Of a stretch of 64,000 nt of DNA, positions 37,213 to 56,133 are shown one piece after another (positions within the stretch are counted from its first letter, which is position 1; each line of letters opens with the position of its first letter). The stretch covers positions 1,612,001 to 1,676,000 of the forward strand of contig NZ_LR215979.1 in NCBI RefSeq assembly GCF_900683735.1. Reading direction: 5' to 3'. The stretch comes from Fusobacterium ulcerans ATCC 49185. Its GTDB lineage: Bacteria > Fusobacteriota > Fusobacteriia > Fusobacteriales > Fusobacteriaceae. The translations under genes and the position numbers were made by a program. The notes below the pieces were generated by a model. That model searched no databases, was not told the origin of the DNA, and worked only from the letters and a program-made list of their open reading frames with translations.

Positions 37213-37362
37213 TTTATCTTCTTTATTTTCTATTTTATAGAAATAATGAAATATATATCCATTAGCGTTGATAAATTTTCTAAATCACTATCTTTTATTT
37301 CTCTCAAATATAATCTATCCGTTTCTAATACCATTCCTATCTCCTCACATTTAATTAATTTT
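37213..37362. other. Short AT-rich gap between tRNA-Glu terminator and MATE gene
   Basis: No gene seen. It includes the 3' flank of the MATE gene on the minus strand. Confidence 0.4.
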
Positions 37363-38712
37363 TTATAATATTTCAATTTTATCTTTCCAATTTCCCCTTT
37401 TATAATACAGCCATCCTATTACTGCTGGAATTATAGGTGAAACTGCCTGACTCACATATAAGCTGTTTACCCCATATGAAAGAAAATAAGTAAAAAGAAA
37501 GCTTAAAAATAACTTTATAATTATTGAATCAAGAAAAGAATTTAGCATTGCTAAAAAAGAATTCCCTACACCTATTGCAAAAGAATCATAAATATACATT
37601 GCTGAATATATCAAACTATTTACTGAACAGCAGATTCTCAGATATTTTACTCCTTCTGTTATTATGGACTGATTTTCTTTTTCAAATATCATTATTAACC
37701 ACTCTGCTGTTAATTGAACAAATATAACTGTCACTATTGTTAATAAAAATCCTATTTTTATTCCAGTTCTCACTACTTCTTTAACTCTTTTTAATTTACC
37801 AGCCCCCATATTCTGCCCTACCATAGCTGTAACTGTCTGTCCCACTGCCCAGCATGGCATTCCTGCAAAAGTATTTATTTTCAATCCAATCCCTGATGCA
37901 GCTGATATTACCATTCCATATCCGTTAAATAATCCAGTCATTACCAAATATGCTATATTAATTATAATCATTTGCAAAGCTGCTGATATACCAATTTTTA
38001 AAATGTCCTTTATCTTTTCTTTTTTTATGTGCTTAAAAGAAAATTCAAATATATTTTCATATCTTTTTAAATATAATATTGCTAATAAAAAAGATACTCC
38101 TTGAGAAATAACTGTAGCAACTGCTGCCCCTTTGGTTCCCATATTCATACTTCCTACCAGAAAAAAATCCAATCCTATATTCAAGATTGCTGCTATTAAA
38201 ACAAAGTATAATGGTTTTTGTGAATCACCTATTCCCTTCATTACTGAACTCACACTATTATAACCAAAAACAAAAATACTTCCCAGATAAATTATATTCA
38301 TATATTCTATGGATTCCTGTAACGCTTCCTCAGGGACTCTAAGTAAAACAAATACATGTCTGCATGTCAGTACTCCTAGTACTGTAACTGCTATTGATAT
38401 AATTATTATAAGAAAAAATATTGAATTTATAACTTCTTTGCAGCTTTCATTATTCTTTTTCCCTCTATATTGTGCTATTAATACAGTTCCACCTAAAGTT
38501 ATTCCTATACATATAGAATTTATTATAAAACACAGCATTGAAGTATTACTTATAGCTATGACACCTCTGCTTCCTATTATTCTTCCTACTATTACCATAT
38601 CTGCAATATTATAAAATGCCTGCAGTAAATTTGCTATAAATAATGGTATGGCAAATTTTATCAATTGTACAGATACATTTCCTGTTGTTAGATCCATTTT
38701 TGTATTTTTCAT
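37363..38712 (-). CDS. MATE family efflux transporter
   Basis: This 449-residue protein has 12 helices in two MatE halves; the opening KFAIPLFIANLLQAFYNIADMVIVGRIIG and the second half motif AGMPCWAVGQTVTAMVGQNMGAG are diagnostic. It is of the DinF/NorM-like prokaryotic type, driving drug or metabolite export with Na+ or H+. It has AAGGAG before ATG 38712. Upstream on the same strand lie a terminator, mutually exclusive stems, a 33-codon ORF and a perfect-consensus promoter, which suggests expression is controlled by premature termination. The substrate is unknown. Confidence 0.93.
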   Translation of the reverse strand: MKNTKMDLTTGNVSVQLIKFAIPLFIANLLQAFYNIADMVIVGRIIGSRGVIAISNTSMLCFIINSICIGITLGGTVLIAQYRGKKNNESCKEVINSIFFLIIIISIAVTVLGVLTCRHVFVLLRVPEEALQESIEYMNIIYLGSIFVFGYNSVSSVMKGIGDSQKPLYFVLIAAILNIGLDFFLVGSMNMGTKGAAVATVISQGVSFLLAILYLKRYENIFEFSFKHIKKEKIKDILKIGISAALQMIIINIAYLVMTGLFNGYGMVISAASGIGLKINTFAGMPCWAVGQTVTAMVGQNMGAGKLKRVKEVVRTGIKIGFLLTIVTVIFVQLTAEWLIMIFEKENQSIITEGVKYLRICCSVNSLIYSAMYIYDSFAIGVGNSFLAMLNSFLDSIIIKLFLSFLFTYFLSYGVNSLYVSQAVSPIIPAVIGWLYYKRGNWKDKIEIL

Positions 38713-38740
38713 TTGATATCTCCTTAACTCTAAATTTTAC

Positions 38741-38772
38741 AAAAAATAAAAAAACAGAAGCTATTCCTTCTG
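38741..38772 (-). terminator. Attenuator terminator before the MATE gene
   Basis: On the minus strand CAGAAGG (38772-38766), a 5-base loop, CTTCTG (38760-38755), then TTTTTTTATTTTTT. It stands between the leader and the MATE ribosome site, so read-through would be needed for expression from the upstream promoter. Confidence 0.78.
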
Positions 38773-38818
38773 CTCAAGTTTTTTGTAACAAAAGGCTTTG
38801 GAAACATCTGCCCAGCCT
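38766..38818 (-). promoter_or_regulatory. Candidate antiterminator / anti-antiterminator stems of the MATE leader
   Basis: On the minus strand AGGCT (38818-38814) can pair with AGCCT (38797-38793). Alternatively CCTTTTG (38795-38789) can pair with CAGAAGG (38772-38766), which is the 5' arm of the terminator. The two pairings exclude each other, the usual logic of a transcription attenuator or riboswitch expression platform. The signal sensed is unknown. Confidence 0.5.
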
Positions 38819-38873
38819 CTATATTTTCAAAAACATATCAAAATAAAACATATAAATTCTATGTTTTTAATGA

Positions 38874-38975
38874 TTATTTTTGATGAATAATAAGAACAGC
38901 TCTGCACAATGTTTCATCTATCCAATTGTCAGAGCTTATTGATATACAAAACTTCCCTAATAACATTTCAAACAT
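38874..38975 (-). CDS. Small ORF (33 codons) in the MATE leader
   Basis: ATG 38975 has AAGGAG eight bases upstream and lies about 23 bases after the predicted transcript start. The frame encodes 33 residues beginning MFEMLLGKFC and ending RAVLIIHQK, stop TAA at 38874. It resembles no family I recognise. It is placed like a regulatory leader peptide: promoter, uORF, alternative stems, terminator, exporter. It could instead be an independent small protein whose terminator is the one at 38741. Confidence 0.6.
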   Translation of the reverse strand: MFEMLLGKFCISISSDNWIDETLCRAVLIIHQK

Positions 38976-39004
38976 AAAGCACTCTCCTTATGCAATATAT
39001 TTTA

Positions 39005-39033
39005 ATTATACATTTTCTTTTTCCCCATGTCAA
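39005..39033 (-). promoter_or_regulatory. Perfect-consensus promoter of MATE leader
   Basis: On the minus strand TTGACA (39033-39028), exactly 17 bp, then TATAAT (39010-39005). It begins immediately after the pcp terminator and reads towards the MATE gene. Confidence 0.88.
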
Positions 39034-39035
39034 TT

Positions 39036-39072
39036 TAAAAAGAGGTCAGCAAATGTACTGACCTCTTTTTTA
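39036..39072 (-). terminator. Rho-independent terminator of the DUF969-DUF979-pcp operon
   Basis: AAAAAGAGGTCAG (39037-39049) pairs with CTGACCTCTTTTT (39058-39070) around an 8-base loop; T-rich on both sides. It lies 9 bp past the pcp stop. Confidence 0.9.
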
Positions 39073-39768: not shown

Positions 39769-40692
39769 TTAGAAAGCAAATAAATACATTATAATAATAT
39801 GGATTATAAGCATTACTATAGCTATTGGTGCCTGAACAAATATAACACTGTTTTTATTTTCCATTTCCAAAATAGAAGCTGGAACAATATTAAAGTTAGC
39901 TGCCATAGGTGTCATTAAAGTTCCACAGTATCCTGCTGTCAATCCTAATGCTCCAACTAATGCTGGATTAGCTCCTAAATTAATAACAAATGGAACTCCT
40001 ATTCCTGCTGTAATAACTGCAAAAGCTGCAAAGGCATTTCCCATTATCATTGTAAATACTGCCATAGCCACACAGTATCCTATTACCCCAAATAATCTAT
40101 TTCCATCTGGAATAACTCCTCCCATCAATGAAGCAATAACTTCTCCTACTCCAGCTTTGGCAAATACAGATCCCAATGCTCCAAGAAGTTGTGGTAAAAT
40201 AACTGTTGCTCCCATTTGTTGTAATATTCTTGAAGACTCATGAGGTATCATAGCAGGTGATTCTTTAGTTACTATTAGCGATATAGCAAGAGCAGCTAAT
40301 GCCCCTCCTCCAAGTCCAACAAGACCACCTAATGGAGTGAACTGAGCTATTGCAAAAGCTACTATTCCTATTGATAAGGCAGGAAAAAATATAAGATTTC
40401 CTAATTTTGCTGCTTGCTTTTCTCTAAATTCTTCACTGCTGTTTGCCAGTGAACCTATTTTTATATTTTTAGTAGCTGTAATTAACCCCATTACAAGAAG
40501 AGAAGCTCCAACTATAACTGGATTTATATATGGTCCTAATATAAATACAAGTCCAAAGATTATCCAGAATGCTGCACTTCCAATTCTTTTATCATTTTTT
40601 TGATCTCTCAAAGCATATATTCCACATAGTATAGAGATTACTCCACAGATAACATACATTATTTCTAAAATTAAATTTATAGTTTCTTTCAT
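39769..40692 (-). CDS. DUF979 family membrane protein
   Basis: This 307-residue protein has about 9-10 helices and matches the DUF979 pattern: GGLVGLGGGALAALAISLIVTKESPAMIPHESSRILQQMGATVILPQLLGALG, and GNAFAAFAVITAGIGVPFVI later. DUF969 and DUF979 are usually encoded together and are thought to form one permease, with CitMHS-like transporter character. Located 14 bp after DUF969 and 43 bp before pcp. A transport role is an inference from fold and context. Confidence 0.85.
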   Translation of the reverse strand: MKETINLILEIMYVICGVISILCGIYALRDQKNDKRIGSAAFWIIFGLVFILGPYINPVIVGASLLVMGLITATKNIKIGSLANSSEEFREKQAAKLGNLIFFPALSIGIVAFAIAQFTPLGGLVGLGGGALAALAISLIVTKESPAMIPHESSRILQQMGATVILPQLLGALGSVFAKAGVGEVIASLMGGVIPDGNRLFGVIGYCVAMAVFTMIMGNAFAAFAVITAGIGVPFVINLGANPALVGALGLTAGYCGTLMTPMAANFNIVPASILEMENKNSVIFVQAPIAIVMLIIHIIIMYLFAF

Positions 40693-40706
40693 TTAGCTCT
40701 CCCCCA

Positions 40707-41369
40707 TTATCTCTTAGTATTTCTCAAACTCTTATCAAACATATAGTTTCTTATAATAGAAACAACTATTGAAATTACTGCAACTGGAATACTGCATTTT
40801 GCTACAGCATAAGGTTCAACATTTGTTATTCCTAATTCTTTTAGAGTTCCAACTATTAATAATACTCCTGATGAAGCTATAAACACATTCTGTCCATAGA
40901 AGTTTCCGTAGTTTTCCATACTTGTAGCAAGAGCTTTTAATTTTTCATCAGTTTTAGCATCTACTGTTCCTTCTTTTTCTGCTGCTCCTTTTACCATTGG
41001 ATAAACAAGAGGTCTGATGAACTGCACATGACCGCTCAATCTAAGTGAAAATGCTGCAGCGATTGTTCTTACAATAACATAAATACTTAAAACTTTTCCA
41101 CATGTAGCACCTTTTAATTCAGAAATACATTTTGCTGCTCTTTCTCTAAGTCCATTTCTTTCCAAAATCCCTACTACTGCTAGTGTTAAAAGAAGAAGAG
41201 TCATATATCTTGTACTCACAAAGGCTTTTCCAAGCACTTCAAGAATTTCAATAAATCCCATATCTGCAACTAAACCTGTTGCAACTCCAGCTATAAGTAC
41301 AACAGCTATAGTATCAAACTTTAATACAAATCCTAAAAGTATTATCAATACTCCTATCAACTTAATCAT
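40707..41369 (-). CDS. DUF969 family membrane protein
   Basis: This 220-residue protein has about five or six helices. The DUF969 hallmark region includes STRYMTLLLLTLAVVGILERNGLRERAAKCI and RLSGHVQFIRPLVYPM. It is the likely partner of the DUF979 protein encoded 14 bp downstream and the first gene of the DUF969-DUF979-pcp operon. GGAGG precedes ATG 41369. Confidence 0.85.
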   Translation of the reverse strand: MIKLIGVLIILLGFVLKFDTIAVVLIAGVATGLVADMGFIEILEVLGKAFVSTRYMTLLLLTLAVVGILERNGLRERAAKCISELKGATCGKVLSIYVIVRTIAAAFSLRLSGHVQFIRPLVYPMVKGAAEKEGTVDAKTDEKLKALATSMENYGNFYGQNVFIASSGVLLIVGTLKELGITNVEPYAVAKCSIPVAVISIVVSIIRNYMFDKSLRNTKR

Positions 41370-55720: not shown

Positions 55721-55905
55721 CACTTCCCGTCCCCGCAGGATAGTTTAAAATTTTTAAGGCAGGTCTCCTGACTCAGACTCATTCTACTAACAGCCCTTCC
55801 CGAAATATTTCAGTGGTTACTCTGTTTTCGTCATCTTCACAGTGGCGGGACCGTGTAAGTTTCTCACTTATCTTCCCTTTTAATCGCAAATATGCAAACC
55901 CTAAA
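55721..55905 (-). promoter_or_regulatory. Cobalamin (B12) riboswitch
   Basis: On the minus strand the aptamer contains AAAAGGGAAG, GCCACTG (55846-55840) and the B12 box AGTCAGGAGACCTGCC (55773-55758). It ends near CTGCGGGGACGGGAAG, which offers the loop for kissing-loop pairing. It precedes the terminator at 55629-55599, so adenosylcobalamin should stop transcription of the whole cbi operon. Confidence 0.96.
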
Positions 55906-56133
55906 AAATTTATTTTTCACATACCAATTATACAAATTATTAATACTTTAGTCAAGCTTTTTAAATGCTTAAATCAATAGGAACTATGCAGAAAATAACT
56001 GTACAGAAAGGTATTAATCTATTTTATTTATAACAGTATATTCAAAAAGTAAAAGTATCTTTTCATTCTTTTTTATGAAAATATCTTCATATTTTAAAAA
56101 TTAATTTTTTATATATTTCAATTAATTTTTATT
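55906..56133. other. Intergenic region upstream of riboswitch
   Basis: It should contain the promoter of the cbi operon on the minus strand and the 3' flank of the helicase gene. AT-rich, with no gene or clear terminator seen. Confidence 0.45.

Follow-up and report, generated by a model that had tools for sequence, protein, structure and literature searches.

A probable ribosome-operated attenuator, related to uup RNA, in the leader of a MATE exporter gene of Fusobacterium ulcerans

How is transcription of the MATE exporter gene of Fusobacterium ulcerans ATCC 49185 controlled by the leader that precedes it? The gene lies on the minus strand of the 64,000-nucleotide stretch analysed here (contig NZ_LR215979.1, positions 1,612,001 to 1,676,000; hereafter the window). 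An earlier reading, made from the sequence alone, had described a consensus promoter, an AAGGAG ribosome site, a 33-codon upstream open reading frame (uORF), two mutually exclusive stems and an intrinsic terminator directly before the ribosome site of the MATE gene, all of which we find at the places it gave (Table 1). It had proposed either drug-inducible attenuation or a riboswitch, perhaps an RNA of a class not yet recognised that binds a ligand, and had noted that the uORF stop precedes the first stem by about 56 nt (the distance is indeed 56 nt), so that simple masking by a ribosome would need another fold.

Table 1. Elements of the leader and the gene behind it, in window coordinates
Feature	Position	Strand	Basis or remark
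Consensus promoter TTGACA-17-TATAAT	TTGACA 39033-39028, TATAAT 39010-39005	-	17-nt spacer, 12/12 match
uORF Shine-Dalgarno sequence AAGGAG	38984..38989	-	sequence; 8 nt 5' of ATG at 38975
uORF, 33 codons, MFEMLLGKFCISISSDNWIDETLCRAVLIIHQK	38874..38975	-	ATG at 38975
uup-like element by model R1	38870..38948	-	47.5 bits, E 4.9e-8
Rfam RF03060 match	38944-38899	-	29.3 bits, E 7e-4
A: 5' arm of hairpin P1, GCTCTGACAA, within uORF	38926..38935	-	Rfam match and model R1
B: loop and 3' arm of P1, GATGAAACATTGTGCAGAGC	38899..38918	-	partner A, alternatively C
TTCATC, predicted partner of P1-loop GATGAA in H-type pseudoknot	38882..38887	-	
C: 5' arm and loop of hairpin T1	38800..38817	-	
D: 3' arm of T1 and tail, AAAGCCTTTTG	38789..38799	-	partner C or E
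First stem (T1), AGGCT/AGCCT	38818-38814/38797-38793	-	
Antiterminator, CCTTTTG/CAGAAGG	38795-38789/38772-38766	-	
E: CAGAAGG, 5' arm of terminator T2	38766..38772	-	partner D or F
T2: intrinsic terminator (E:F) with U tract	38741..38775 (hairpin 38775-38752)	-	
MATE Shine-Dalgarno sequence AAGGAG	38720..38725	-	ATG at 38712
MATE family exporter, 449 aa	37363..38712	-	PF01554; TIGR00797 206.8 bits, cut-off 147.4

Within the 4.5 kb scanned, the 12/12 promoter match is unique and terminator-like sites number 5 compared to 1.6 expected; the fold of the leader surpasses those of its dinucleotide shuffles (z -3.5, none of 200 as good). The MATE promoter is separated from the upstream pyroglutamyl-peptidase gene by a 13-pair terminator-like hairpin (39037-39070), and the leader is therefore probably a transcription unit of its own. 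The exporter belongs to the MATE family by its MatE domains and by a TIGR00797 score above cut-off. Among its neighbours are a DUF979 and DUF969 membrane protein pair adjoining the pyroglutamyl-peptidase gene (39769-41369, minus strand) and, just 3' of the MATE gene, a short ORF (37230-37376, minus strand) that begins like a GNAT acetyltransferase (LETDRLYLREIKDSDLENL), soon reaches a stop and looks like a remnant. The window also carries a cobalamin riboswitch (55741-55918, minus strand, 110 bits).

A permissive Rfam scan of the leader gave a single strong sub-threshold match, to uup RNA (RF03060), inside the uORF, and no Rfam match to a known riboswitch class. The match scores 29.3 bits, below the curated gathering cut-off of 36.8, and by score the leader thus falls outside the family; the alignment covers the full length of the model (1-48) with no broken pair, and the window has in common with uup RNA the hairpin with its pairing arms, the near-invariant GATGAARCATTGT block and a place upstream of resistance-type genes. 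The Rfam model is a 48-nt hairpin lacking a pseudoknot, a uORF or the cascade of T1 and T2 described below. A pattern scan of 84,980 genomes together with family searches in several bacterial groups yielded 70 distinct uup-type leaders including that of the window, or 44 once near-duplicates were removed; two pattern matches without a pairing hairpin (L047 and L057, in Arenicella and Saprospiraceae) were dropped. A covariance model, R1, built from 41 of these leaders with the window left out, recovers the window as its sole match at E<=0.1 in the 3.84 Mb genome. On sequence and statistics, then, the leader is homologous to the uup RNA family, though divergent, and in place of the unrecognised class once envisaged we have an RNA akin to a recognised, functionally orphan one. 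The family was reportedly described in a 2017 NAR survey. A 2024 review lists it as a riboswitch-like orphan for which there is no further evidence of riboswitch function (PMC11477304).

The element is sparsely distributed among the 98 Fusobacteriota genomes searched. R1 is convincing only in the genome of the window, in that of the sister species and in a single further species; weak matches in three genomes (G003, G049 and G053; E 0.006-0.03) were put down to chance, that of G003 lying within an ABC-F coding gene and that of G053 being a terminator-like hairpin. The RF03060 model finds one other genome above cut-off (G009, of the same genus) and at that threshold misses the window itself. 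In G009 the genes behind the uup RNA are a Mef-like MFS gene and, next to it, an ABC-F gene (L031:1470-2916), and its uORF stop overlaps the ATGA of the loop. A DNA search with the whole leader in 40 relatives gave a full-length match in the sister species only, the many short matches being discarded as they look like promoter or A+T-rich chance similarity.

The sequence-only reading had not noticed that the window's uORF contains a hairpin, P1, with a predicted pseudoknot (38935-38882, minus strand). The loop, GATGAAR, can pair with a downstream YTTCATC to form an H-type pseudoknot absent from the Rfam hairpin model, with a helix of six pairs in the window (GATGAA with TTCATC). TTCATC is present in 40 of the 44 leaders compared to 0.66 expected. 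P1 and the pseudoknot are 93.6% paired across 41 leaders, with 69 double-change cells where shuffles give 22.4 and sliding gives no more than 9, and one leader (L095) carries the compensating pair GGTGAA/TTCGCC. A 13-nt block is nearly invariant across leaders, and there is no invariant column without a pairing role, every invariant base having a partner in one of three competing helices.

The uORF recurs with the hairpin: a start codon (ATG or GTG) that has a ribosome site and lies 27-42 nt 5' of P1, its frame open into P1, was found in 34 of 42 leaders compared to 1.3 expected from shuffles. Codons 1-15 of the window uORF align with the leader peptides of related MATE genes (MFYLIYNKICIEVSS and MFYIIYNKVCIEICS versus MFEMLLGKFCISISS) and with that of poxtA (VLFGKFCIDFGS), the common motif being K-x-C-I...S, and this front part looks to be conserved as a peptide within the MATE/poxtA subgroup. 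Beyond codon 15 the frame is not kept, and one block of RNA gives MKHC, DETL or a stop depending on the leader; the hairpin is therefore conserved as RNA, and conservation of the 33-residue peptide, which had been raised as a question, appears to extend to its first 15 codons within the subgroup and no further.

Genes found behind the other uup leaders encode ABC-F proteins, Mef-like MFS exporters, a Vat-like acetyltransferase, a GNAT acetyltransferase and MATE exporters. The window leader differs from the type in preceding a MATE gene and not an ABC-F (Uup-type) gene, and uup RNAs scoring above cut-off also precede MATE, Mef-like and Vat-like genes. It is improbable that the window leader is a small-molecule riboswitch in which a ligand, conceivably the drug, would bind to the pseudoknot and the uORF would have no part in control. 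H-type pseudoknots serve known small riboswitches, and both the near-invariant block and the cataloguing of uup RNA as a riboswitch-like motif would be in keeping with such a function; however, the three competing helices account for all invariant bases and would leave none for a binding pocket, the narrow spacing of ribosome site and start and the open frame recur far beyond expectation, and the controlled genes have in common the ribosome as a drug target, not a metabolite. Of the two possibilities first proposed, attenuation that relies on a uORF, a terminator and a pair of exclusive stems is thus supported and a ligand-binding riboswitch appears unlikely; the geometry points to the ribosome as the sensor.

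Across the 44 leaders the pairing segments form a trp-like chain, comprising the A:B hairpin (P1), B:C, the first stem C:D (T1), the antiterminator D:E and the terminator E:F (T2). T1 is a family-conserved hairpin followed by TTTTGTT, and its 5' arm is able to pair with the uORF hairpin, which had also escaped the earlier reading: the best downstream partner of B is the 5' arm or loop of T1 in 35 of the 44 leaders, including the window, where GAAACAT (38915-38909) faces ATGTTTC (38807-38801). The additional fold that ribosome masking called for is thus supplied by the uup-like hairpin, through its 3' half. The antiterminator does occupy the 5' arm of the terminator as proposed, and its two sides co-evolve in relatives. 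When segments were swapped between leaders (5000 permutations), pairing energies were -14.0 kcal/mol for own compared to -11.5 for swapped D:E (no permutation as good) and -12.8 compared to -11.9 for B:C (27 as good), differences from which shared ancestry is not fully removed and which it inflates to an uncertain degree; both results hold after thinning to 16 dissimilar leaders, and with three very dissimilar leaders the test has no power. Conservation of stems and uORF in relatives, on which the sequence-only reading had let its proposal depend, is observed for both.

Folding of the window with A masked gives B:C (10.2 pairs) and D:E (10.1) with no C:D, compared to A:B with a mixture of C:D and D:E before masking. 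In full-length equilibrium folds D:E and E:F are nearly balanced in the window whether or not A is masked, and E:F prevails in most relatives as soon as F has been made; as these folds display no clean switch, switching must be kinetic. T1 of the window is weak and its U tract is broken, and it would therefore hardly terminate transcription alone. Several enterococcal leaders carry a U tract on T1 itself, with no T2 found, and are a simpler form of the same switch. The window leader combines two features of a ribosome-mediated attenuator, in that a predicted translatable uORF overlaps the first exclusive stem, and an exclusive antiterminator and an intrinsic terminator precede the gene.

Compared with the Dorea leader, that of the window has lost two single bases, which changed the uORF frame inside the hairpin, and the MATE gene is rare in Fusobacteriota; both could be taken to indicate a leaky or decayed element with an ordinary promoter, constitutive read-through of the terminator and a uORF without a role. 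We consider this very improbable, since the pairings are intact despite the frame change, as are the promoter, ribosome site and T2, and since the changes seen in the sister species preserve pairing: of three substitutions between the transcript start and the MATE gene, two fall within switch helices, where each leaves a G-U pair. The high conservation of the leader in the sister species (99%) was dropped as a sign of constraint, because the upstream gene is equally conserved. Classical amino-acid attenuation, with the ribosome stalled by an uncharged tRNA (e.g. for cysteine or isoleucine, from K-x-C-I), would suit the trp-like chain and the one cysteine and one isoleucine conserved in uORFs before MATE genes and poxtA, yet is barely credible given that the uORF comparison found no residue common to all uup leader peptides and that the controlled genes confer resistance and are not biosynthetic.

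We therefore judge it likely that the window leader, as a divergent relative of uup RNA, is a ribosome-operated transcription attenuator for the MATE gene. The uORF would be translated, and behind freely running ribosomes the pseudoknotted A:B hairpin would re-form, followed by C:D (T1) and E:F (T2), so that transcription would stop before the MATE gene. A ribosome-targeting antibiotic would stall the ribosome at about codons 7-13 of the uORF and A would be covered; B would then be free to pair with C and D with E, T2 could not form, and the exporter gene would be transcribed, presumably for export of the drugs concerned. A starts about 38-40 nt past the start codon, beyond the reach of an initiating ribosome, and the stall must therefore occur in elongation; the range of codons is what we infer from a footprint of ~15 nt downstream of the P site. 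Judging from the genes regulated by such leaders, the acting drugs are probably inhibitors of the peptidyl-transferase centre and the exit tunnel.

The E. coli trp attenuator follows the same logic, a chain of mutually exclusive pairings being read by the ribosome on the leader, although the trp chain is shorter and its signal is tRNA charging. The leader of poxtA, a transferable oxazolidinone/phenicol resistance gene of enterococcal plasmids (L061:1323-1660, plasmid CP066214.1), resembles that of the window in having a uORF (GTG start) with GKFCI, a hairpin with CATTGT and both T1 and T2, but its loop is without GATGAA and hence forms no pseudoknot, and it controls an ABC-F gene; judged by these elements it is a degenerate form of the uup-type element. 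The attenuators of the ABC-F genes vmlR, cplR and lsaA likewise have a uORF and antiterminator/terminator logic, and for vmlR and cplR induction by ribosome-targeting drugs has been shown (PMC9226507, PMC10201436). Their uORFs comprise 3-4 codons and stalling is thought to take place at initiation (PMC9226507, PMC10201436), whereas the window hairpin lies ~38 nt past the start and would need elongation arrest; we noticed no sequence relation. The bmrB leader of bmrCD, as described in an excerpt of its report (PMC4191407), is also a leader-peptide RNA with alternative stems that places a drug exporter under transcription attenuation, but the exporter is of the ABC type, the leader has 53 codons and the excerpt mentions no pseudoknot.

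MATEs that follow uup leaders in Enterococcus avium/raffinosus and Dorea share 52-56% identity with the window MATE, and one that follows a uup leader in Bacilliculturomica shares 45%, compared to 37% for the next MATE within the window's genus; leader and gene have therefore probably travelled together. There were no plasmid copies of the window MATE at E<=1e-80. A second MATE subfamily (MepA-like; L120, L121, L122, L131 and L134), ~25% identical to the window MATE, also has a uup leader, and this suggests that the uup module was recruited to MATE genes more than once.

For the family as a whole we lean towards viewing uup RNA not as a riboswitch but as a portable, pseudoknotted sensor of ribosome stalling embedded in a uORF, placed in Bacillota and Fusobacteriota before at least five kinds of resistance genes (ABC-F, Mef-like and MATE efflux, Vat-like and GNAT acetylation) and, in degenerate form, before poxtA. 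That would give an orphan RNA a specific and testable mechanism that includes its own uORF, a chain of pairings and a pseudoknot missing from the Rfam model. It is predicted that poxtA is inducible through its related leader, and that MATE genes behind uup leaders respond to ribosome-targeting drugs, which would help to assign substrates to uncharacterised exporters.
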